IMG/VR virus record: IMGVR_UViG_3300031456_000019
Location: 1 to 23,991 of that record
Length of the DNA stretch: 23,991 bases
Direction: 5' to 3' (one strand)
From: a virus
Numbering within the stretch: the stretch's first letter is position 1; the number at the start of each line of letters is the position of its first letter. Below, one piece after another: positions 2,985 through 20,436 of this stretch. The notes beneath the pieces were generated by a model. It saw nothing but the letters and a program-made list of their open reading frames with translations, did not search any database and was not told the origin of the DNA. A program made the translations under genes and the position numbers.

Positions 2985-3344
2985 TTAACGGCGGCACCGC
3001 CATGTTCGGCCGTGGCCGTAGTAGACCTTGTGCATTCTATGGCGCTGGCAGAGGTCGAGCGTGAGTGACGCGCGCCTGCTGCTTACGGTTTTTGTTTTTG
3101 AATTTGGCGCAGGTGTCCTGCGCTCTACAGTTGGCGCAGGTGTCCTGCGCTCTACGTTTCGAAGAACAGTTGCCGGTGGCAAGTCTCCGACCGCCGACCA
3201 ACGGGACCGAAATGTCCCGCTGTCCATGCGAGCAGCACGCACACCTTCAGTCTCCACCGCCTTGGCCACGACCGGCTTATCCGGTGCAGGCCATGCGACC
3301 CACACTGCTGCCGGGATCGCAGCCAAGGTGATGATGACGCGCAT
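2985..3344 (-). CDS. Putative exported protein with 9-residue tandem repeat (119 aa)
   Basis: The start is the ATG at 3344, just after the stop of the upstream regulator gene. The N-terminus MRVIITLAAIPAAVWVAWPA reads as a signal peptide or membrane anchor. A basic middle region holds two copies of VERRTPAP, encoded by a 27-bp tandem repeat. The C-terminus (LDLCQRHRMHKVYYGHGRTW, then RCRR) has a Cys/His-rich look that I associate with small rhizobial exported proteins, though this is uncertain. An extension to 3398 would begin inside the upstream gene and lose the clean signal peptide. Function unknown. Confidence 0.6.
   Translation of the reverse strand: MRVIITLAAIPAAVWVAWPAPDKPVVAKAVETEGVRAARMDSGTFRSRWSAVGDLPPATVLRNVERRTPAPTVERRTPAPNSKTKTVSSRRASLTLDLCQRHRMHKVYYGHGRTWRCRR
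3104..3155. repeat. Two 25-bp direct repeats, 27-bp period, each a hairpin
   Basis: The copies run 3104-3128 and 3131-3155 and are identical over 25 bases. Each contains GCGCAGG-TGT-CCTGCGC, a perfect 7-bp inverted repeat (3107-3123 and 3134-3150). The repeat is in frame with the minus-strand gene and encodes VERRTPAP twice. Confidence 0.85.
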
Positions 3345-3649: not shown

Positions 3650-4327
3650 TCAGCCCTCCTTGGTTGTCTCTTGCTTCACTGGCGTTTTGCCAGTTCGGTA
3701 ATGCCCGGGCGCTACGCGCACGAGCATCTCCTTTTGAACCAGCGAGGTGAGCGCAGGGCCGACACCCGTTGGCACAAATCCCAGTTTTTCCATCGCGGTC
3801 TTGATGTTGCCGAGGCTCACACCTTCACCGCTGCCGTTCTGCTTCTTGCTGACGTGCGCGACGATGCGTTCCAGCGCGCTCTTGCCGTCCTCGGGCCTGC
3901 GCGTCTTGCGCTTAAACTTCGGCGCGGCGTATTTGGTTTTTGCCTTTTTTGTTTTCTTGGCAGGCCTGCCCGGTCGAGCCTTTTTAGCGACCTCATAGAT
4001 GCCCATGTCGATGCGCTTAAGCAGGCCGTCTTTCGCGAACTTGCTGACCACCGCGTAGACCGCTGTCTTCGTCAGACCAGCCTTCTCTGCGGCGGTGGCG
4101 ACCTCCTTCATCGGGATGCGATTGTTGGAGGCCATATACTCGATCACGAACTCTTTCGGCGTCGGCATCGCCTTCAACGCGCCGTTCTCGTCGTCGCCGC
4201 CGTGCTTCACCGGCTCGATGACGAGGCTTCCTGCAACGGCCTTGCCCTCAAAGAGGGTCATCGCGTCGTACAGGATGCTGTGATCCGCGATCACGGTGAT
4301 CCTGACTAACTTTCGCATCTGTGCCAC
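3650..4327 (-). CDS. Putative DNA-binding protein with two winged-helix-like domains (225 aa)
   Basis: The GTG at 4327 is chosen because GGAG lies 8 nt upstream; the ATG three codons later would be too far. After about 50 N-terminal residues, residues 55-115 (PTPKEFVIEYMASNNRIPMK, then KAGLTKTAVYAVVSKFAKDG) form a winged-helix-like domain. A very basic Lys/Pro linker with AT-hook-like RPGRPAKK follows. A second domain of the same plan spans about 150-210 (SALERIVAHVSKK..., LGNIKTAMEKLGF, ALTSLVQKEMLVRVAPGHYR). The arrangement suggests a two-headed DNA binder or nucleoid-like regulator. The function is inferred from fold pattern only. Confidence 0.7.
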   Translation of the reverse strand: MAQMRKLVRITVIADHSILYDAMTLFEGKAVAGSLVIEPVKHGGDDENGALKAMPTPKEFVIEYMASNNRIPMKEVATAAEKAGLTKTAVYAVVSKFAKDGLLKRIDMGIYEVAKKARPGRPAKKTKKAKTKYAAPKFKRKTRRPEDGKSALERIVAHVSKKQNGSGEGVSLGNIKTAMEKLGFVPTGVGPALTSLVQKEMLVRVAPGHYRTGKTPVKQETTKEG

Positions 4328-4431
4328 TGGGCAATCTCCTCTGTGTTTCCCTTTGGTAGAGGTGTCCAGTTTACTCGACTCATTGTGTCATGCAATTCCA
4401 CAGCCCGATTATGGCTTTATTTCTTGTGCGG
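4328..4431 (-). promoter_or_regulatory. 104-nt gap, possible internal promoter for the distal leftward operon
   Basis: This is one of only two sizeable gaps in the leftward series. It is AT-richer than its surroundings. On the minus strand TTGCAT is followed after 16 nt by TAAACT, a weak promoter-like pair, and a good Shine-Dalgarno GGAG precedes the GTG start of the downstream gene. No clear terminator hairpin is seen. Confidence 0.25.
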
Positions 4432-4626
4432 CTAAGATAACTGGCCACCGTAGTCCGATGCCACCTGCCGCAGTATGTCCAATTGTCTCGACGCTTGTCG
4501 CTGGGTCAGCTTCCCCTTGGCGATCAGCGATGGGTAGACCCGCTGACGCATCGCGATTTCGCGCATGATCTCCGAAAACTTTTCCTGCGCTGTGAAAATC
4601 TGATCGCTTTTGCTGGGTTCTGTCAT
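4432..4626 (-). CDS. Hypothetical small helical protein (64 aa)
   Basis: The start at ATG 4626 (MTEPSKSDQIFTAQEKFSEI) overlaps the upstream stop by 4 nt; the 10-residue extension to 4656 is not needed. The whole protein looks helical and charged (FSEIMREIAMRQRVYPSLIA, then KLTQRQASRQLDILRQVASD). Small proteins of this pattern are frequent in phage early regions. Nothing identifies a partner or activity. It ends just before the 104-nt gap. Confidence 0.6.
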   Translation of the reverse strand: MTEPSKSDQIFTAQEKFSEIMREIAMRQRVYPSLIAKGKLTQRQASRQLDILRQVASDYGGQLS

Positions 4627-4952
4627 TGCAGCGTCTCCGTGCTCGCTCCGATGCACTCTTTCAGCATCATGGCTTGGTCGGCTTCACTGCACGGGATCGA
4701 GGCCACGCGCACCGGCTCAACGGCATCGCCGCGTGCGGCGCGGTCGAGCAGGTCGTCGCCTTTAACGACCATCATGTCGACGCCATCCGGCTTGGTGCGA
4801 TCCGGCCAAACGCAAAACACCACCTCGGCCTTTTTGGCGATCTCGAAAATTTGATCGACAGACCCGGTGAGAATTTTCCGGGTTTCAACGGCGAGGCGCA
4901 GCATGTCGGCGCGCACCGTCGTCACATAGCCGCTGTGTCCGTTGCCTTTCAT
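4623..4952 (-). CDS. Hypothetical protein (109 aa)
   Basis: The start ATG at 4952 has GGAGG 7 nt upstream. The sequence begins MKGNGHSGYVTTVRADMLRL and continues with an amphipathic helix (VETRKILTGSVDQIFEIAKK), then strands (AEVVFCVWPDRTKPDGVDMM) and a helical C-terminus containing IPCSEADQAMMLKECIG. It looks like a compact soluble alpha/beta domain with no known motif. ATGA overlaps on both sides indicate coupling with the 64-aa and 148-aa proteins. Function unknown. Confidence 0.65.
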   Translation of the reverse strand: MKGNGHSGYVTTVRADMLRLAVETRKILTGSVDQIFEIAKKAEVVFCVWPDRTKPDGVDMMVVKGDDLLDRAARGDAVEPVRVASIPCSEADQAMMLKECIGASTETLQ

Positions 4953-5395: not shown

Positions 5396-5577
5396 CACGG
5401 CACCGTCAGTGCGATCCAGAGGACCAGCAGGTTTGTCGCCGTCGACATCATCGCGATGGCCAGCAGCCGCCAGTCGAGGTGCTCCCATGGCGTGGTCTGA
5501 ATGATGACCGTCATCATGGTGGTGAGCGCGGCGAACGCCGCGATGAACACCAGTGCAAGCTCCACGACCAGCGACAT
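5395..5577 (-). CDS. Small two-span membrane protein (60 aa)
   Basis: The ATG at 5577 has AGGA 7 nt upstream and lies just after a strong hairpin; an ATG at 5598 would fall inside that hairpin. Two hydrophobic segments are visible: residues 4-25 (VVELALVFIAAFAALTTMMT) and about 37-58 (LLAIAMMSTATNLLVLWIAL), joined by a polar WEHLDW loop. The size and topology match many class II holins, but no endolysin or spanin is nearby, so 'membrane protein' is the safe call. Confidence 0.6.
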   Translation of the reverse strand: MSLVVELALVFIAAFAALTTMMTVIIQTTPWEHLDWRLLAIAMMSTATNLLVLWIALTVP

Positions 5578-7326: not shown

Positions 7327-7489
7327 GTTTGGCCTCATCGCGCATACGCTTGTGATACTCATTGATCTCGTCGTCATCGAACGTCATCGGCGTGGTGTTG
7401 AAGGGCGGCGGCAACTTGTTCAGATCGACCCAGCGCATGATGGTGCGCCGCGATCTGCGAAACAGGCGCGCGACGTCTTCCAGCGTCAT
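7247..7489 (-). CDS. Small HTH protein, MerR/excisionase-like (80 aa)
   Basis: Residues 1-31 (MTLEDVARLFRRSRRTIMRW...) read as a helix-turn-helix of the HTH_17/excisionase type: first helix VARLF, turn with R/S, recognition helix RRTIMRWV, then NKLPPPF. Such proteins act as excisionase-like recombination directionality factors or small regulators. An acidic helix and a basic disordered tail (RRRHRKTGAGDAA) follow. It lies directly downstream of the RecT-like gene (4-nt overlap). An Xis role with the serine recombinase on the other side is possible but unproven. Confidence 0.7.
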   Translation of the reverse strand: MTLEDVARLFRRSRRTIMRWVDLNKLPPPFNTTPMTFDDDEINEYHKRMRDEAKHGRKQPEQPEPDIRRRHRKTGAGDAA

Positions 7490-8346
7490 GCTCGCTCCTC
7501 CTGCTTCACCACGAAGCGTTGCTTCTCGATGGCGGCGTTGAGCATGCGGTGCATCTTCGGCTCGATCTCGGCCATGCGCGCTGTCGCATCGACGTTGTAC
7601 GCGGCCCAGCGGTCAAGCTCCGCAACTGTGCGCGCCGTGCGCGCGTTGGCAATGTAGGCCTGCGCCCATTGTCGCCAGTCCTCGTCACCGGCAGGCGCGA
7701 CCATGCGGTACGGCTCGATGTATTCGGCCTCGCTCGGCTGCTCGATGGTCGTGCCCTGCTGCAGGTCAGGCGGGTGCATCGGGGTCGGCTCGCGATGCGG
7801 TGTGACGTCGACCATGTCGCGCACCTCGTCATCGAACTGCATGCCGAGCATCACCTCGGACAGATGCAAACGGCCCCATGTGCGCGCGCCGGAATAGCCG
7901 AGTTGCTGGTCGGGCTGCTTGGTCCATTGCGCGTTCTGGGTCTTGACGTTGCCGAGGCGCACCTCGACCGAGCGTGACGTGGTCTCGCCGTGCAGGCGCG
8001 CGCTCACCGTGATGGTGCGCTCGTCGCCTTCGCCCGCGTAAACGTAGCTGAGCCGCTCGGCGAGCATGCCCGATGAGTTGAGCATCGCGGCGGCCATCTT
8101 GCCCGAAAAGCCGACCTTGCCCGAGATCACGTAGCACTCACCGATGGTGAGAAAAAAATCGAGGCGCAGGCGTTCGCAGGTGTTCATCACCAAAAAAAGA
8201 TCGGCCGGGCTTTTCTGGAATGCTGGCGGCACGAGGCGCGCGGTCGCAAGCTCGCGGCACAGCGCCATGCGATCCATCGCATTGACCGGCCATTGCATGG
8301 CGGTCGGCGGCGAGGCGACGACTGGCAGGTTGGAGGTGTCGTTCAC
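7486..8346 (-). CDS. recT: RecT-like single-strand annealing protein (286 aa)
   Basis: RecT-family proteins anneal complementary single strands next to a 5'-3' exonuclease during phage recombination and repair. The motifs seen match: MDRMALCRELATARLVPPAF, then CERLRLDFFLTIGECYVISG, GKMAAAMLNSSGMLAERLSY and the signature W-TKQPDQQLGYSGARTWGR at residues 141-159, followed by DDE at 172-174. The GTG at 8346 forms a GTGA overlap with the upstream exonuclease stop and has AAGGGAAG before it. The C-terminal 100 residues are lower-complexity. The exonuclease partner immediately upstream strongly supports the call. Confidence 0.85.
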   Translation of the reverse strand: MNDTSNLPVVASPPTAMQWPVNAMDRMALCRELATARLVPPAFQKSPADLFLVMNTCERLRLDFFLTIGECYVISGKVGFSGKMAAAMLNSSGMLAERLSYVYAGEGDERTITVSARLHGETTSRSVEVRLGNVKTQNAQWTKQPDQQLGYSGARTWGRLHLSEVMLGMQFDDEVRDMVDVTPHREPTPMHPPDLQQGTTIEQPSEAEYIEPYRMVAPAGDEDWRQWAQAYIANARTARTVAELDRWAAYNVDATARMAEIEPKMHRMLNAAIEKQRFVVKQEERA

Positions 8347-9146
8347 AGCACTTCCCTTTCGCGGATGGTGACGGCGCCGTTCTTGGCGCGGCGCACGGTG
8401 AGGTCGCCGTAGAGCACCGCGCCGACGTCGTCGGGCAGCATTTCCTTCACGGTCTTCTTCGCGGCATCGTGCTGGCGCGCGGCATCGCGTGTCGCGGACC
8501 ACTGGCGCATGGTCTCGATCATCGGCACACCCCAGTTCGGCAGCGGCACGGTCACGGCGAGGTCGACGGTGCGCCAAAGCTCGGGCGGCACCAGCACCGG
8601 GCGATGCACGGGCGGCGTCATGGTGTCGACGCAGCGCTGGAAGGCGGCGAGGCGGTCGAACACCTCGCGCTCGTAGGCCGCGTCGATGTTGATTTCAAAT
8701 TGCTCCAGCGTGAACCCGCGCAGCACGGCGAGTATGCCGCGCGCTGCATCGCGGCAGCGCATCTGCAGGAGAACCTGCGGCGTGTACTCGGTGATGATGT
8801 CGCGGCGGTCGCTGAAGGGGTTGCAGTGCTTGGCCTCGACCACGGCATCGTCGAAGGCGCGATAACCGTCCAGCGTTGCGCTGTAGGGCAGGGCGGGGTG
8901 CTCGATGAAGCGTTGCCGCTCGGTGATCTCGTGCTGGTCCACGCGCTCGATCCAGTCGAGAATGAACGGCTCGCACAGCTTGCCGAGTTGAACCGGCAGG
9001 TTGTTGCTGAAGTCCTGCGGCGCGATCTCGCCGAGGCGTTCCTGCCAGAGCGCGAACAGTTCGTCGGCGCTGCCGTGGACGATGATGCGCGCCTGCGATG
9101 CGGTGGTGTATCGCTCGCGCAAGGGCGAGAGGTGGCACTCGGTCAT
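8343..9146 (-). CDS. YqaJ/lambda-exonuclease-like recombination nuclease (267 aa)
   Basis: These enzymes resect double-stranded DNA 5'-3' to make the single strands that RecT anneals. The PD-(D/E)XK core is visible: E59 in LGKLCEPFI, D93 in SATLDGYRA, E104-x-K106 in VVEAKHC, and Tyr/Gln in YTPQVLLQM at about 121-128. The ATG at 9146 has GGAGG 8 nt upstream; the ORF to 9227 is an unsupported extension. It is the first gene of the leftward operon, directly downstream of the divergent control region. The helical C-terminus is followed by a basic end (LYGDLTVRRAKNGAVTIRER). Confidence 0.85.
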   Translation of the reverse strand: MTECHLSPLRERYTTASQARIIVHGSADELFALWQERLGEIAPQDFSNNLPVQLGKLCEPFILDWIERVDQHEITERQRFIEHPALPYSATLDGYRAFDDAVVEAKHCNPFSDRRDIITEYTPQVLLQMRCRDAARGILAVLRGFTLEQFEINIDAAYEREVFDRLAAFQRCVDTMTPPVHRPVLVPPELWRTVDLAVTVPLPNWGVPMIETMRQWSATRDAARQHDAAKKTVKEMLPDDVGAVLYGDLTVRRAKNGAVTIREREVL

Positions 9147-9627: not shown

Positions 9628-9903
9628 ATGACTGATACGACATCAGATGGGTCTCCCAGCAAGCACCTGCTGTTCTCGTTCAACGAGGTCGTGCGCGCGC
9701 TCGGCGGCGTGTCCAAGCTCGCCAAGCTGACCGACTGCAGCAGGAGCAGCGTGTGGAATTGGCGCAAGGCCGGTGTTTTCCCGCCACGGCATTATCGTGT
9801 GATGCGCGATGTTCTGTTCGAGCAGGGTTATGTCGCCGATCTGCGCCTGTGGGCGTTCACCGGCAGCGAGAAACCACCCGCCACCATTGATGTCGCTGCT
9901 TGA
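9628..9903 (+). CDS. Cro/YdaS-like HTH regulator (91 aa)
   Basis: A 91-residue DNA-binding protein and the first rightward gene. Residues about 20-55 (EVVRALGGVSKLAKLTDCSR, then SSVWNWRKAGVFPPRHYRVM) match the YdaS/Cro type: helix, 'VSKLAKLTDCSRSSVWNW' helix-turn-helix, and the characteristic '(R/K)xGxxPxRxxxxMRDVL'. Such proteins control early-promoter choice in lambdoid-like phages. The palindromes immediately upstream are the obvious candidates for its operator. The C-terminus (FTGSEKPPATIDVAA) is probably disordered. Confidence 0.8.
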   Translation: MTDTTSDGSPSKHLLFSFNEVVRALGGVSKLAKLTDCSRSSVWNWRKAGVFPPRHYRVMRDVLFEQGYVADLRLWAFTGSEKPPATIDVAA

Positions 9904-10329: not shown

Positions 10330-10805
10330 GCCTCGACGTCAACACACCGCTCGGCCAGCAGACCTTGCGCGACGAGGGTTTCGCGGCTGACCTGTTCGAG
10401 CGGCACTACAAGGCGCGTTACCTGCACACGCCGAAGGATCGCGCGAGCAGGCTCGACGCTTTCGTGCTCAAGGGCAATACGTTGTGCGCGGTCGCGCTGA
10501 CCAGCTGCCGCTACAACGTCACGCTGGCGACATTCCATTCGACGTTCGACTGCGAGATGCTGCTGACATGGCGCAAGGTGCAGGTCGGCGCGTGGCTCTC
10601 GCGCGGACTGCAGGTGCCGCTGCTCGGGCTTTTGTATTTCGTTCCCGACCGCGTGCTGATGGTCGCCAAGCTCTACGACCTCGATCACTGGGCGGTGCCG
10701 TTTCGGCGTGCGCTCACCGAGACGCAGGCGACGGTGAATGGCGGCCGCGCGCTGCGCATGAACGTCTTCATCGACATGAGCCGTGCAACGCAGATCGCGG
10801 GGTGA
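10326..10805 (+). CDS. PD-(D/E)XK-like fold protein, apparently lacking the catalytic ExK (159 aa)
   Basis: The pattern RLDAFVLKGNTLCAVALTSC, then RYNVTLATFHSTFDCEMLLT and LQVPLLGLLYFVPDRVLMVA resembles phage restriction-endonuclease-like proteins. In homologues I recall, the third strand reads 'VAE(I/V)K(C/S)R(Y/D)' with catalytic Glu and Lys. Here D44 is kept, but the E and K positions are L58 and S60 (VALTSCRY). If the alignment is right, it is a non-catalytic DNA-binding or partner protein for the adjacent VRR-NUC. It starts with ATGA inside the VRR-NUC stop. The family call comes from memory and is moderate. Confidence 0.6.
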   Translation: MSLDVNTPLGQQTLRDEGFAADLFERHYKARYLHTPKDRASRLDAFVLKGNTLCAVALTSCRYNVTLATFHSTFDCEMLLTWRKVQVGAWLSRGLQVPLLGLLYFVPDRVLMVAKLYDLDHWAVPFRRALTETQATVNGGRALRMNVFIDMSRATQIAG

Positions 10806-11331: not shown

Positions 11332-12556
11332 TGACGACGACAATGTCGTGCTGTTCGACATGCGGCTGCGGGCGCAATGGCAATCGCGGTGTTTGTTGAC
11401 CGAGAAGGGCAAGCTGATCCCGAACCATGCGAACGTGATGCTGGCGCTGCGGCTCGATCCGGCATTGCGCGAGAATTACGGCTACGACGAGATGCTGCGC
11501 AGCGAGGTGATGCTGCGCGAGCTTGGCCATCTCGAGCCGGTGCATCGTTATGTGACCGACGCGGATGCGTGCGATCTGTTGGAGTGGCTGCATCAGAACG
11601 GGATGCCGGGCTTGCGGCTCGATGTGGTGCGCAACGCGCTGTCGACGCGCACGCGCGAGTGTCCCATTCATCCGGTGATCGATTATCTGCAGTCGCTGCA
11701 ATGGGACGGGGTGCCGCGTCTGGGGATTTGGTTGACGTCGTATCTGGGCGCGCCGCTCGGGAATTACAGCGAGCACATCGGGCGCATGTTTCTGATCTCG
11801 ATGATTGCGCGTGTGGTGCAGCCCGGCTGTCAGGCCGACCACATGATCGTGTTGGAGGGGCCGCAAGGCATTCTCAAGAGCAGTGCGTGCCGCGTGCTCG
11901 GCGGCGAATGGTTCTCGGACAATCTGCCGGACATCACCAGCGGCAAGGAGGTCTCGCAGCATTTGCGTGGCAAGTGGCTGGTGGAGGTGAGCGAGATGCA
12001 CGCGATGAACCGCGCCGAGGCGACCTTGCTCAAGAGCTTCATCTCGCGCGGCGTGGAAATCTTCCGGCCTTCGTACGGTCGGATGGAGGTGCACGAGCCG
12101 AGGCAATGCGTGTTCGTCGGCACGACCAATCAGGATCAATACCTCAAGGACCCGACAGGCGGTCGCCGTTTCTGGCCGGTGAAGACCGGGATCACCGGGC
12201 GCATCGAGCTTGGCTTGCTGGCCGAGCAGCGCGACCAGTTGTTCGCCGAGGCGCTGGCGGCGTTTCAGGAGGGCGGCACGTGGTGGCCTGATCCCGCGTT
12301 CGAAGCTGAGATCATCAAGCCGCAGCAGGCCGAGCGTTACACGGGCGACATCTGGGAAGACCGCATCGACCAGTTTCTCATCGAGCGCACCCGGGTCTCC
12401 ACGCGCGAGATCGCCCGCGAGGCCCTCGGCTTTGTCGACAAGGAGTTGCGGCAGGAGCACAGCCTGCGCATCGCTTCCATCCTGCGCGATCTGGGCTGGG
12501 AGCCGAAACGCTCGGGCAGGACACGGTGGTGGTGCCGTAATGGATTGATCTCCTGA
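11324..12556 (+). CDS. VapE-type (SF3-like) replicative ATPase/primase-associated helicase (410 aa)
   Basis: Virulence-associated protein E family members are P-loop ATPases that act with primases in phage and island replication. Motifs: Walker A GPQGILKSS at 179-187, Walker B region WLVEVSEM at 218-225, sensor-like FVGTTN at 264-269 and GGRRFWPV at 279-286. A helical N-terminus (DLLEWLHQNGMPGLRLDVVR) and a C-terminal winged-helix-like part (STREIAREALGFVDKE, then RIASILRDLGWEPKR) flank the core. The ATG at 11324 has GGAG about 8 nt upstream and overlaps the previous gene by 8 nt. The origin-like region lies immediately downstream. Confidence 0.85.
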   Translation: MADDDDNVVLFDMRLRAQWQSRCLLTEKGKLIPNHANVMLALRLDPALRENYGYDEMLRSEVMLRELGHLEPVHRYVTDADACDLLEWLHQNGMPGLRLDVVRNALSTRTRECPIHPVIDYLQSLQWDGVPRLGIWLTSYLGAPLGNYSEHIGRMFLISMIARVVQPGCQADHMIVLEGPQGILKSSACRVLGGEWFSDNLPDITSGKEVSQHLRGKWLVEVSEMHAMNRAEATLLKSFISRGVEIFRPSYGRMEVHEPRQCVFVGTTNQDQYLKDPTGGRRFWPVKTGITGRIELGLLAEQRDQLFAEALAAFQEGGTWWPDPAFEAEIIKPQQAERYTGDIWEDRIDQFLIERTRVSTREIAREALGFVDKELRQEHSLRIASILRDLGWEPKRSGRTRWWCRNGLIS

Positions 12557-12592
12557 GACCGTCACCAACCGTCACACCGTCACAAGTGTGGT

Positions 12593-12598
12593 TATAAT
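12593..12598 (+). promoter_or_regulatory. Perfect TATAAT -10 hexamer between iterons
   Basis: TATAAT sits 9 nt after the third CCGTCAC and 21 nt before the fourth. The expected -35 position (about 12570-12575) falls in the iterons and does not resemble TTGACA. Activity would therefore be weak alone or activator-dependent, and a protein on the iterons would compete with RNA polymerase. It would read towards the packaging genes. Confidence 0.4.
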
Positions 12599-12629
12599 GT
12601 CAGAGATTAAGCGTCATGACCGTCACATT

Positions 12630-12734
12630 GGTGACGGTGTGACGGTTCGTGTCGATCTTCCCTTATATAGGTATACAAAGACCCTGTTTGTAACGCTATA
12701 TAAGGAAGATCGTCACTAGACCGTCACCGTCACC
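12630..12734. repeat. Imperfect palindrome of about 105 bp with AT-rich arms
   Basis: The inner arms 12654-12679 and 12687-12711 pair with one bulged C and a few mismatches: GATCTTCCCTTATATAG on the left, CTATATAAGGAAGATC on the right, around the loop GACCCTG. The symmetry continues outward: GGTGACGGTGTGACGG at 12630-12645 mirrors CCGTCACCGTCACC at 12721-12734 with a 2-nt gap. The core is strikingly AT-rich for this GC-rich window. Confidence 0.8.
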
Positions 12735-12819
12735 ACGCGCAGGGATTAAGCTTGACGCGATGGAGAACGGCGCGCAGTTTTCGCGGCTTCAAAGGTCGTG
12801 GTCGGCACCTCGGACCTAA

Positions 12820-13125
12820 ATGGCGCGAGCACCAACCGATTTGAGATCGCTGGCGCGTGCACACACCGAGATGGGGTTGCGCGTGCTTTGCGGCATTGCG
12901 CAGAACAGCGAGAGCGACAACGCACGCGTGGCTGCTGTCGGTCTGATCTGGGATCGCGGCTGGGGCAAAGCTCCGCAAGCGCATACTGGCGCAGACGGCG
13001 AAGGCGATATTCGCGTCACCATTCGGCACATCATCGAAGGCACTGCAGCGCCGCAAGTTCTTGATGCGAGCAACGACGCCAAGGTGCTGACCTTGGTGCC
13101 CAAGAAAACTGAGGGCGAGCCATGA
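12820..13125 (+). CDS. Putative small terminase subunit-like protein (101 aa)
   Basis: Residues about 8-50 (LRSLARAHTEMGLRVLCGIA, then DNARVAAVGLIWDRGWGKAP) match a short helical module often found just upstream of TerL in alphaproteobacterial phages ('LRxLARxHTxxAxxxL...ARVxAAxxLLDRGWGKxPQ'). Small terminase subunits recognise the packaging site and regulate TerL. The C-terminus (GDIRVTIRHIIEGTAAPQVL) is beta-like. The ribosome binding site is poor. TerL is separated by the serine recombinase gene, which is unusual, so the TerS role is inferred. Confidence 0.55.
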   Translation: MARAPTDLRSLARAHTEMGLRVLCGIAQNSESDNARVAAVGLIWDRGWGKAPQAHTGADGEGDIRVTIRHIIEGTAAPQVLDASNDAKVLTLVPKKTEGEP

Positions 13126-13131
13126 ATTGTG

Positions 13132-13187
13132 CGCTTGCCAATTGGCACACCCCATACTCAACGAATTCGCTTGCCAATTGGCACACC
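13132..13187. repeat. Two 20-bp direct repeats, each containing a 12-bp palindrome
   Basis: CGCTTGCCAATTGGCACACC occurs at 13132-13151 and 13168-13187, 36 bp apart. Each contains the perfect palindrome TGCCAATTGGCA. A degenerate third site (GCGCCAAATGGCAC) overlaps the recombinase start codon. They may be recombination-site arms or operators controlling the recombinase. Confidence 0.8.
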
Positions 13188-13200
13188 TTGGACCATATTG

Positions 13201-13216
13201 ACGTTCGTCAGAACGT
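13201..13216. repeat. Inverted repeat ACGTTC-GTCA-GAACGT
   Basis: Perfect 6-bp arms and a 4-nt spacer, 14 nt after the second 20-bp repeat and about 18 nt before the recombinase start. Possible crossover-type site or additional operator. Confidence 0.5.
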
Positions 13217-13233
13217 TCCAAGGGATGCGCCAA

Positions 13234-13875
13234 ATGGCACTCGTCGCTTACTACCGGGTTTCCACCGCACAGCAGGGCCGCTCGGGCCTCGGTCTGGAAG
13301 CGCAGCGCGCGACAGTGCTGGCCTTCGCGAAGGCCGAGGGGCTGGAGATCATCGCGGAATACACCGAGATCGAGACAGGGAAGGGCGCAGACGCGTTGGA
13401 TCGCCGCCCGCAGCTAAAGGCCGCTCTGAAGCACGCGAAACGCTCCACGGCCTCCGTATGCGTTGCCAAGCTGGACCGCTTGAGCCGCGATGTGGCGTTC
13501 ATTGCAGGCCTGATGGCACAGCGTGTGCCGTTCGTCGTGTGTGCGCTGGGCCGCAACGTCGATCCTTTCACGCTGCACATCTACGCCGCGCTCGCCGAGC
13601 AGGAGCGGCGCATGATCTCGCAGCGCACGTCCGCTGGCCTTCAGGCAGCGAAAGCACGCGGTGTCGTGCTCGGCAACGCCTCGATGGTCGAGGCACAGAA
13701 AGCCGCTGCAGCAGAGCGCGATCTTGCACTGCGCGAAGTGGTGATGCCGATGATTGGCCTGCCCTCGCGTGTCATCGCAAGCAAGCTGACCGAGCTTGGC
13801 ATCGAGACACCGAGAGGCGGCAAGGTCTGGTCGCACATGACCGTGCAGCGTGTGATGGCCCGCCTAGGCTGGTAG
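13234..13875 (+). CDS. Small serine recombinase (resolvase/invertase family, 213 aa)
   Basis: Serine recombinases cut and rejoin DNA with a catalytic Ser. Residues 5-11 (AYYRVST) give R8 and S10. Later active-site motifs are KLDRLSRD at 79-86 and [20 protein letters not shown] at 120-139. The C-terminal 45 residues ([20 protein letters not shown], then [15 protein letters not shown]) form a HTH DNA-binding part. The length is that of a resolvase or invertase rather than a large serine integrase. The ATG at 13234 has AGGG 9 nt before it; upstream in-frame codons read through the repeats and are rejected. Its place between TerS-like and TerL genes is odd. Confidence 0.85.
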
Positions 13876-13891
13876 GCCTCGCCCGGTCGGC

Positions 13892-13912
13892 CCCCGGGGG
13901 ACCTCCCCGGGG
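13892..13912. terminator. GC-rich hairpin after the recombinase gene (terminator candidate)
   Basis: CCCCGGGG at 13892-13899 and again at 13905-13912 can form an 8-bp stem around GACCT, followed by CTTTGTGT. The T-run is short and the 8-mer is self-complementary, so other folds are possible. It could separate recombinase and terminase transcription. Confidence 0.4.
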
Positions 13913-13987
13913 CTTTGTGTCCAAGGGAACCCATTTCACGGGTCCTCCGCGCGACGAGGCTCTCACATTTTCCGGTGAGCGCCCCTG

Positions 13988-15352
13988 ATGGACATCACGC
14001 TTCCCCACAATGGCTGGCTCCCGCGCGCGCATCAGATGGCGCTGTGGAGCTATCTCGCCAACGGCGGCAAGCGTGCGATGGCGGTATGGCATCGGCGTGC
14101 GGGCAAGGACGAGATTTGTTTGCATCACGCCTCGTGCGCGGCGATGCAGCGTGCGGGCAACTACTGGCACTGCCTTCCAGAATTCTTGCAAGGTCGCAAA
14201 GCCATCTGGACCGCGATCAACGCGCACACCGGCAAGCGCCGCATCGATGAAGCCTTCCCGCCGATGCTGCGTGAGACCACCAACGACAACGAGATGTTCA
14301 TCCGCTTTCTGAACGGCTCGACGTGGCAAATCATCGGTAGCGACCGCTACGACGCCACCGTCGGCGCAGGTGTCGCGGGCATCACCTACTCAGAATGGGC
14401 GCTCGCGAACCCGTCAGCGTGGGCCTACCACCGCCCGATGCTGGAGGAAAATAACGGCTGGGCCGCCTTCATCACCACGCCGCGCGGCAGAAACCACGCC
14501 CTCTCGATGTTCAACCACGCGCAAGCAACATCGGGCTGGTTCTCCGAACGCCTGACTGCGCTCGACACGCATGCGCTCTCGCAGGAGCGGCTGGAGGAGG
14601 CGCTCGCCGAGTATCAGGCCCTTTACGGCATGGACGTCGGGCGCGCGCAATTCCAGCAGGAATACATGTGCGACTGGAACGCCGCTATTCTCGGGGCATT
14701 TTACGCCTACGAGATGGCGCTGGTGCGCGCTGAAAACCGCATTATCGACATCGACGCGCAACCCGGTGTTCCGGTGCATCGCGCGTGGGATTTGGGCATG
14801 ACCGACGACACGAGTATCTGGTTTTACCAGATGGTCGGCTCGCAAATCTTTATTCTCGACCATTACGCCACCTCGGGCGTCGGCCTCGAACATTATCGCG
14901 ACATCATCGAGATGCGCTACCGCGACCGGGGCTGGACCCACGGCGAGGATCACGTGCCGCACGACGCGAAGGTGAAGGAGATGGGCACCGGCCGCACCCG
15001 CGTCGAGACCATGCGCCTGCTCGGTCTTAAGCCGATCTTGGTCCCGAACGCATCCATCGAGGACGGGCGCAACGCGGTGCGGCGCACGCTGCCGCTGTGC
15101 GTCTTCCATCCGCGCACCGAGGTCGGCGGCATCGATGCGCTGGAGCAGTACCGGCGCGAATGGGACGACGAGAAGAAGGCGTTCCGCGCCAACGCGGTCC
15201 ACGACTGGACCTCGCACCCGGCCGACAGCTTTCGCTACCTCGCGCTCGCATGGCGCGCGCCGCCGCCGCGCGTCGTGACACCGCCGCCGCTGCTTCCATC
15301 CGGCTGGATCATTCCGCCGCCACCCGAACCACGCGCGGGGATCATGCTGTGA
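13988..15352 (+). CDS. terL: Terminase large subunit, ATPase and nuclease (454 aa)
   Basis: TerL drives DNA into the prohead and cuts it. The ATPase has a Walker A-like HRRAGKD at 35-41 (the RxAGKD variant), Walker B-like GITYSEWA at 131-138 with E136, and a motif III ITTPRGRN at 162-169. The RNase H-like nuclease has AWDLGMTDDTS (D268), VPHDAK (D326) and HDWTSHPADSFRY (D406, D413) as candidate metal ligands. The C-terminus ends in a proline-rich tail. The ATG at 13988 is preceded by GGTGAG. The size and order of motifs fit podovirus/siphovirus-type terminases. Confidence 0.9.
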   Translation: MDITLPHNGWLPRAHQMALWSYLANGGKRAMAVWHRRAGKDEICLHHASCAAMQRAGNYWHCLPEFLQGRKAIWTAINAHTGKRRIDEAFPPMLRETTNDNEMFIRFLNGSTWQIIGSDRYDATVGAGVAGITYSEWALANPSAWAYHRPMLEENNGWAAFITTPRGRNHALSMFNHAQATSGWFSERLTALDTHALSQERLEEALAEYQALYGMDVGRAQFQQEYMCDWNAAILGAFYAYEMALVRAENRIIDIDAQPGVPVHRAWDLGMTDDTSIWFYQMVGSQIFILDHYATSGVGLEHYRDIIEMRYRDRGWTHGEDHVPHDAKVKEMGTGRTRVETMRLLGLKPILVPNASIEDGRNAVRRTLPLCVFHPRTEVGGIDALEQYRREWDDEKKAFRANAVHDWTSHPADSFRYLALAWRAPPPRVVTPPPLLPSGWIIPPPPEPRAGIML

Positions 15353-19313: not shown

Positions 19314-19871
19314 ATGGCGCAAAGTGCAACCACGGTAACACCTGACGGCCCCTCGCCGCCGACCAACTTCGGCGGGCAGGTCGGCATGCGACCGCCGACC
19401 ACGGCGGGCTTGAACCCGATTGACGACGGCGCGGCGGGCTCCGCGCTGGTGTTTGCAGCACCGGTCAGCGGCACCGCCTCCGAGGGCGCTGGCAGCGAGG
19501 TCAACGTCGTTGCGCCCGGCTCACGCGCGGAGTGTCCGACTATCGCAACCTCCGACCTCGGCAATTTCACGCGCGAGCCGAACGGGCAGCACGCCTCGAC
19601 CTTGTCGCCGAGCGCGAGCGCGAGCATCAGCGGCCTCGTCCCGGCCTCGCTCGTGGCCGGTGCTGGCACCAACGCGCTCGCGGTGAACGGCGCAGGCTTC
19701 ACGCGGCAATCGGTCGTCTACGTCAACGGTGTTGCGCAGGTCACCGCCTTCATCAGCGCGGTGCAACTCAATGTCGCGGCGGCACCGAAGAAGGCGACCG
19801 CAGGCACGCTCCCGGTCACCGTCGTGACCGACCGCGTCGGCACGGCCCCAGCCAACTGGACGTTCACATAA
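19314..19871 (+). CDS. Ig/TIG-like head decoration protein candidate, copy 1 (185 aa)
   Basis: GGGAGG lies 6 nt before the ATG. The N-terminal part (MAQSATTVTPDGPSPPTNFG, then VGMRPPTTAGLNPIDDGAAG) is shared with the next gene. The C-terminal 80 residues (VAGAGTNALAVNGAGFTRQS, then VVYVNGVAQVTAFISAVQLN and GTLPVTVVTDRVGTAPANWT) show the IPT/TIG pattern of a beta-sandwich: 'GxGFTxxSxVYVNG...T.F....L...PK...GTxxVTV'. Ig-like domains decorate many phage heads and bind surface sugars. Role and location on the virion are inferred. Confidence 0.65.
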   Translation: MAQSATTVTPDGPSPPTNFGGQVGMRPPTTAGLNPIDDGAAGSALVFAAPVSGTASEGAGSEVNVVAPGSRAECPTIATSDLGNFTREPNGQHASTLSPSASASISGLVPASLVAGAGTNALAVNGAGFTRQSVVYVNGVAQVTAFISAVQLNVAAAPKKATAGTLPVTVVTDRVGTAPANWTFT

Positions 19872-19884
19872 GTGGAGGCTCGCC

Positions 19885-20436
19885 ATGGCTCAAAGCGCAA
19901 CAACGGTGGCACCGGAAAGCCCGACGCCTCCGACGAACATGGCCTGCGTCGGCATGCGACCGCCGACGACCGCTGGCCTTGCGCAACTCGATGACGGTGT
20001 GGCGGGATCGCTCACCGTGTTCGTCGCGCCTGTGAGCGGCACAGCGCACGAAGGCGCTGGCACCGAGGTGGTCGTGACCTCGCTGCACTCGCGGCCTGAG
20101 TGCCCGACACAGTCGGTGTCCGACCTCGGCAACTACACCACCAAGCCGAACGTCGATCACGCATCGAGCAACTCGCCCGCGACAGGTCCGCAACTCGACA
20201 CCATCGGCCCCAACCCGACCGCCGGTGACGGCGCTTCGGTCACGCTGACCTGCACCGGCAACTTCTTTCACAAGACGTCGGTGATCTATCTGAACGAACA
20301 GCCGCTGGAGACGCACTTCTTCTCGCAATGGAATATCGACACGCACGTGAACAAGAAGGCCTCGCCCGGCACATGGAAAGTCACCGTCCGAAATGGTGGC
20401 ATCACCTCAGCAGCAGTCGATTGGACCTTCACATGA
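19885..20436 (+). CDS. Ig/TIG-like head decoration protein candidate, copy 2 (183 aa)
   Basis: A tandem paralogue of the preceding protein. The N-terminus MAQSATTVAPESPTPPTNMA and VGMRPPTTAGLAQLDDGVAG aligns closely with it, and both proteins end in WTFT. The C-terminal domain (PTAGDGASVTLTCTGNFFHK, then TSVIYLNEQPLETHFFSQWN and SPGTWKVTVRNGGITSAAVD) keeps the TIG-like plan but has diverged. Two adjacent copies suggest duplication followed by specialisation, for example of different surface contacts. It ends 4 nt into the next gene (ATGA overlap). Confidence 0.65.
   Translation: MAQSATTVAPESPTPPTNMACVGMRPPTTAGLAQLDDGVAGSLTVFVAPVSGTAHEGAGTEVVVTSLHSRPECPTQSVSDLGNYTTKPNVDHASSNSPATGPQLDTIGPNPTAGDGASVTLTCTGNFFHKTSVIYLNEQPLETHFFSQWNIDTHVNKKASPGTWKVTVRNGGITSAAVDWTFT

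Follow-up and report, generated by a model that had tools for sequence, protein, structure and literature searches.

Organization of the locus

The locus described here lies in the IMG/VR virus contig IMGVR_UViG_3300031456_000019, the whole of which (23,991 bases) was analysed and is referred to below as the window. A terS-like open reading frame, a 38-bp dyad, a recombinase gene, a terminator-like hairpin and terL follow one another in this order (Table 1), and because genes for a portal and a major head protein lie downstream, we read the locus as part of the packaging and head cluster of a tailed phage. The terS-like gene belongs to the same family as the gene that precedes recombinase and terL in one relative (L033), and a position ahead of terL is found for it in relatives more generally. 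Among annotated phages, the nearest terL genes are those of Rhizobium phage RHph_I3_18 (64%) and Bradyrhizobium phage ppBjS10J-1 (61%), while a DNA search with window positions 12500-14000 against phage records gave no match.

Two further features of the record may be mentioned. Between a VapE-like helicase/primase gene and terS, positions 12556-12735 hold eight copies of CCGTCAC on both strands together with 35-nt and 19-nt inverted repeats, partly kept in L133 and L138; this region is a candidate replication origin or packaging-linked site. Farther downstream, the adjacent and similar open reading frames 19314-19871 and 19885-20436, both starting MAQSATTV, look like a tandem duplication of one unassigned gene.

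Table 1. Features of the terS-terL interval and a distant recombination gene, in window coordinates
Feature	Position	Strand	Remarks
RecT-like ssDNA annealing protein	7486-8577	-	phrog_561, E 2.4e-31
Terminase small subunit-like gene (terS)	12820-13125	+	phrog_15261 (unknown function in PHROGs)
20-bp repeat, copy 1, CGCTTGCCAATTGGCACACC	13132-13151		palindrome 13136-13147; proposed operator
20-bp repeat, copy 2, CGCTTGCCAATTGGCACACC	13168-13187		palindrome 13172-13183, overlaps -35; proposed operator
Sigma70-like promoter TTGCCA-17-CATATT	13171-13199	+	-35 in repeat copy 2; -10 inside crossover dyad
Crossover-site dyad CCTTGGACCATATTGACG-TT-CGTCAGAACGTTCCAAGG	13186-13223		centre 13204-13205; proposed recombinase substrate
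Inner inverted repeat ACGTTC-GTCA-GAACGT	13201-13216		part of the 38-bp dyad
Degenerate third repeat copy CGCCAAATGGCA	13228-13239		2 mismatches; overlaps SD-start spacer and ATG 13234
Small serine recombinase, 213 aa	13234-13875	+	PF00239, E 1.9e-25; phrog_125, E 5e-28
Terminator-like hairpin 3' of recombinase gene	13892-13912	+	flank aligns with terL-proximal part of interval in L131-L133
Terminase large subunit (terL)	13988-15352	+	phrog_2 terminase large subunit, E 9.8e-19

The enzyme encoded between terS and terL is a small serine recombinase of the resolvase/invertase class, combining the PF00239 match and the catalytic Ser/Arg motif with a predicted long E-helix followed by a C-terminal HTH. 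Residues R8, S10, D81, R82 and R85, which we take to be the catalytic residues of a serine recombinase, are invariant across 42 aligned relatives, and the AlphaFold2 model built from 42 relatives (mean pLDDT 86.6) predicts helices at residues 111-141, 149-173, 178-188 and 201-211. The predicted 25-residue helix 149-173 lies between the E-helix and the HTH, and might account for the site being wider than gamma-delta's 28 bp. Translation is best placed at ATG 13234, with AAGGGA at 13220-13225 and a spacer of 8 nt, the alternative being ATG 13225. Because it is the recombinase frame that matches PF00239 and has a third-position GC of 0.78, we discarded the overlapping open reading frame 13122-13988 as a shadow frame.

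A recurrent dyad with a polar centre

The original prediction, made from this DNA alone, had pointed out an inverted repeat between the palindromic repeats and the gene, and it is present as the inner repeat of Table 1, but merely as the inner part of the 38-bp dyad. The larger element begins 61 nt past the terS stop and consists of 18-bp half-sites around TT, with 14 of the 18 positions pairing and a core, ACG-TT-CGT, that pairs at 6 of 6. On pairing alone it ties with position 5534 of the record, which is without the ACG/CGT core; on a combined score of dyad plus core, 13186-13223 is the best place in the whole record.

Dyads of 32-38 bp with the core ACG-NN-CGT recur near the start codons of recombinase relatives, of which we collected 80 viral and 36 bacterial ones in addition to those on plasmids. 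Genes for small serine recombinases have this shape in front of them in phages and bacterial genomes, and also on plasmids, where they lie beside repA/parA. The dyad was found in 40 of 94 non-redundant upstream regions of 130 nt, the window included, against 0.6% of mononucleotide shuffles, a comparison in which the rules had been written after the first examples were seen, the rows are related and the shuffles preserve base composition but not dinucleotides. These counts exclude regions shorter than 150 nt or at least 85% alike, the partial matches L070, L071, L111, L115, L116 and L118, and also L121, L124 and L125. The draft genome of Bauldia litoralis ATCC 35022 alone has at least six recombinase matches belonging to this family (L086, L088, L089, L093, L111 and L116), and in the four whose upstream DNA was read (L086, L088, L089 and L093) the dyads are near-identical. 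In a tree of 90 recombinases, which leaves out the short L009, L080, L103 and L114, the window adjoins L007 inside a 13-row viral clade, and another clade of 30 viral rows is without the dyad in front of the gene.

Serine recombinases cut with a 2-bp overlap at the centre of their sites, and this centre sets the polarity of the site. Our dyad-finding rules are blind to the central dinucleotide, which nonetheless is self-complementary in none of 50 sites less than 80% alike, where 12.5 (25%) were expected; P is 5.6e-7 if the sites are independent, and the true value is larger because they are related. With near-copies included, the count is 0 of 70. The dyad thus appears to behave like the crossover site of a serine recombinase, and the central dinucleotide of such sites is discussed in PMC3783163. 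Copies of the arms within 150 nt are not enriched around the 50 sites, that of the window among them (2% upstream and 4% downstream at p<=0.05), so there is no sign of accessory sites of the Tn3 type.

A single family-type site was found in the window, and likewise in L037, L018, L019, L140 and L039, five contigs that have end repeats, with the arms judged by eye. Strict-rule hits numbered one in G035, G037, G032, G005, G007, G001 and G019, two in G033 and G018, three in G002, four in G017 and five in G036; the surplus hits are without family arms by eye and were judged to be chance. An invertible switch, in which the repeats or the dyad would recombine with an inverted partner, is suggested by the phrog_125 label of DNA invertase, but with no second family-type site in the window or the five end-repeat contigs and a centre that is never self-complementary, we regard inversion as extremely improbable.

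Some observations run against the assignment. A position matrix from 32 other sites misses the window's own site as a finder, scoring it -12.8, below all 32 (-2.3 to 38.1); its arms are atypical, so that only symmetry, core and place identify it, and we keep the matrix as counter-evidence. The closest relative, L007 (69-70% identical), is missing the dyad despite a kept promoter, and no convincing site was found in its 18.4-kb contig. L134 has a site and no serine recombinase in 41.6 kb. Taken with the recurrence above, comparison of sequences nevertheless gives good support to 13186-13223 as a putative crossover site, and points to the recombinase as the enzyme that would act there.

Position of the dyad relative to the end of terS

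Where related phages have their recombinase gene 1-6 kb from the dyad, the dyad is still at the 3' end of terS. This is so throughout the 30-row clade where the fetched DNA sufficed, with the recombinase gene as much as 3 kb away, and in L018/G032 the recombinase occupies 4094-4720 while the site, at 10422, overlaps the end of an Sf6-like terS. Sites mostly fall between -25 and +21 nt relative to the terS stop, and the placement holds for two types of TerS, the phrog_15261 type and the Sf6-like PF20901/phrog_309 type. L033, whose terL is different, repeats the window order of terS, site, recombinase and terL; its site is weaker and overlaps the end of terS. Other arrangements exist: in L036 and L068 the site is near the recombinase start with terS beyond the recombinase, and in L036 terL is on one side; in the L037 and L052 phages the site is away from any recognisable terS.

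With repeats of identical terS surroundings excluded, 15 of 26 recombinase loci, including the window, have the best dyad of the entire locus within -60 to +150 nt of the terS stop; among terL-retrieved loci, this is true of 6 of 8 with a recombinase against 1 of 46 without. Under a looser site rule, 20 of 32 recombinase loci having TerS show a site there, compared with 1.2% of regions shuffled for base composition but not dinucleotides. Lower-scoring dyads were sought in seven of the twelve site-less loci, including L067, where the sequence ends too early; L058, L060, L061, L062, L065 and L066 have one at the terS position with the centre ACC-AA-CGT, and L016 has none there. The presence of site and enzyme is also correlated, as a site occurs in all 8 of the terL-related contigs with a small recombinase and in 1 of the 26 without (34 contigs, P 5e-7), or, for terL-retrieved contigs only, in 5 of 5 against 1 of 26 (P 3.5e-5). 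In RHph_I3_18 and ppBjS10J-1, the cultured phages nearest in terL, the DNA that was read contains no family-type dyad.

Because the best dyads gather at the terS end in recombinase loci, the terS-terL interval is probably a recombination locus, as the original prediction had suggested. That prediction had named integration, resolution or inversion as its role; resolution, or cyclisation, fits best. For integration, the dyad would be attP and the small serine recombinase the integrase, and no PF00589 integrase was found in the 24-kb record, itself a fragment. Alongside the small enzyme, however, the contigs of L019 and L140 encode another PF00239 protein, whose open frame of about 605 aa has the length of a large serine integrase, and the L144 contig has a tyrosine integrase. 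These separate integrases in three relatives' contigs make integration unlikely as the main role, and we give it quite a small chance.

Palindromic repeats as probable operators

The claim of two identical 20-bp repeats, each with a 12-bp palindrome, was correct: the two copies of CGCTTGCCAATTGGCACACC lie 36 bp apart, are 100% identical and contain TGCCAATTGGCA. A search of the 24-kb phage record, which had been proposed as a check, found these two exact copies only, and six matches at up to two mismatches against 0.99 expected, a number reached in none of 100 shuffles. The degenerate third copy described over the start codon is likewise there, but may be a chance occurrence, since the record has three more two-mismatch matches in other places. 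When viral contigs were scanned for an exact 19-mer, one match came up, inside what appears to be a tape-measure gene (named by eye).

The layout had been likened to a res or attachment site or to an operator. We set aside the palindromes as crossover or accessory sites, given that the arms of the 50 sites are not copied nearby; with no such enrichment, and with palindromes that overlap the promoter as operators do, the repeats are probably not the crossover site and are most likely promoter operators of the recombinase gene. L007 keeps TTGCCA and CATAT at equal spacing, the SD and part of the palindromes. A reading of TTGGCAC as a sigma54 promoter was dropped, as by eye there is no -12 element. 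Palindromes of the type GGGCCANTGGCCC stand in a similar place in the recombinase promoters of L003, L004, L037 and L052, with several further copies in the phages of L037 and L052, and TAGGC-N7-GCCTA-like palindromes stand in recombinase promoters of part of the 30-row viral clade; these too may be operators.

Such findings lend some weight to a purely regulatory cluster, in which repeats and dyad alike would be operators of the recombinase gene and recombination would take place elsewhere: the promoter hexamers share positions with repeat copy 2 and with the dyad, and related promoters carry palindromes that are multi-copy in two phages. Yet many phages have the dyad at terS, 1-6 kb from the recombinase gene, and the central dinucleotide avoids self-complementarity, which makes this alternative improbable.

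Relation to plasmid resolvases and origin of the module

Presumed multimer-resolution serine recombinases of plasmids, such as those linked to repA on pSM103mini and to parA on roseobacter plasmids, are of the same subfamily, with 43-57% identity over nearly the full length. Of 9 plasmids examined, 7 have a similar dyad no more than about 100 nt from the gene; in L123 and L128 it is about 0.4 kb upstream. The plasmid genes are often near rep and/or parA within the fetched stretches, some of which are without either, and this context suggests multimer resolution. Unlike these relatives, the window enzyme sits on a phage, between terS and terL.

It is therefore conceivable that the module does nothing but resolve multimers, keeping a plasmid-like circular phage or prophage monomeric, with its place at terS inherited and non-functional. 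The plasmid neighbourhoods just described would agree with this, as would the finding of no second site copy on the nine plasmid stretches and the recurrence of a block of divergent recombinase and terS in one 30-row viral clade. Against it, a ParA-type PF01656 match occurs in only 1 of 12 contigs, several phages carry integrases, and a site at terS is seen with both TerS types and in several gene arrangements. We consider resolution as the sole role unlikely, although it has a substantial minority share of the probability.

In the nearest relatives by terL (L131-L133, 82-86%), the terS-terL interval measures 359-395 nt and lacks both recombinase and site; window positions 13880-13988 align with the terL-proximal part of this interval. 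For this reason the recombinase module probably entered the window by insertion between terS and the terL-proximal part of the interval. The same interval (3148-3501 in L131, 3109-3501 in L132 and L133) includes a short conserved stretch with a peptide like ACAAATSRI; a similar stretch is seemingly on the opposite strand in L134 (minus, near 3000), the contig with a dyad and no recombinase.

A possible role in cyclisation and monomerisation

We favour a site-specific recombination module in which a single crossover site beside the packaging start serves to cyclise and monomerise phage DNA, with a probability of roughly 0.55. The site, its tie to the recombinase and its place at terS are supported by comparison; for catalysis, cyclisation, operator function and the physiological role, the locus suggests the following course of events. 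A recombinase dimer would bind the dyad, cut the central 2 bp and join two sites in direct orientation. With one polar site per genome, recombination would act only on dimers or redundant ends, so that the substrates would be dimeric or concatemeric genomes, or both ends of one linear molecule packaged by the headful. Headful phages usually begin packaging in or near terS. Terminal redundancy starting at a pac near terS would place the site at both ends, and a site at the terS end may fall within the redundancy of the first headful. As two copies are needed, and multimers or redundant ends have them, the likely job is cyclisation and multimer reduction: incoming DNA would be made circular without RecA, and multimers would be reduced to monomers. 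Recombinase on the dyad would cover the -10 element and so also repress its gene, and the TGCCAATTGGCA repeats, as operators over and upstream of the -35, could be bound by a phage regulator, for which the HTH protein encoded at 9628-9903 is a candidate, or by the recombinase. The RecT-like protein encoded in the window is another possible route to circles and counts against cyclisation by the recombinase.

More broadly, widespread temperate phages may have taken up plasmid resolvases and parked the crossover site at the terS end, inside the headful terminal redundancy, as an independently evolved serine counterpart of P1 Cre-lox and a marker of the packaging start; we put this wider proposal forward tentatively, at slightly less than even odds. 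Searches of open-licence literature gave no recognisable description of a serine recombinase site at terS. If the proposal is true, a sequence rule (38-bp dyad, core ACG-NN-CGT, polar centre) would describe the substrates of a large recombinase group found on plasmids and in phages, and the presence of a resolvase beside packaging genes in phages that also have an integrase would be explained. RecA-independent cyclisation by a serine recombinase would also become directly testable, and candidate orthogonal crossover sites would be at hand together with their enzymes.

Comparison with known systems

The best matches of solved structure are DNA invertases (4m6f and 3uj3), and the PHROG label likewise points to the Gin/Hin systems, from which the window differs in that no inverted second site was found. 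With Tn3 and gamma-delta resolvases and their res sites, the window shares the catalytic domain family and a crossover dyad preceding the gene for the enzyme. The gamma-delta crossover site is 28 bp, compared with 38 bp in the window; the window family is, moreover, without recognisable sites II and III, and the window model has the long helix 149-173.

The P1 Cre-loxP system offers a parallel in arrangement, with a single dyad of polar centre accompanied by its own recombinase, and with resolution and, for the window, proposed cyclisation as functions. In P1 the site is near the packaging genes, as in the window, and Cre-lox also cyclises P1 DNA. A single polar site per genome characterizes the window family as well, if the surplus strict hits are chance as judged. 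P1 packs about 112% of its genome, and Cre-loxP is described as a multimer resolution system in PMC10999674. The window enzyme is, however, a serine recombinase while Cre is a tyrosine recombinase, the sequences are unrelated, and cyclisation is only proposed for the window; the system may thus work like Cre-lox, yet it is no member of it, since its recombinase uses serine rather than tyrosine.
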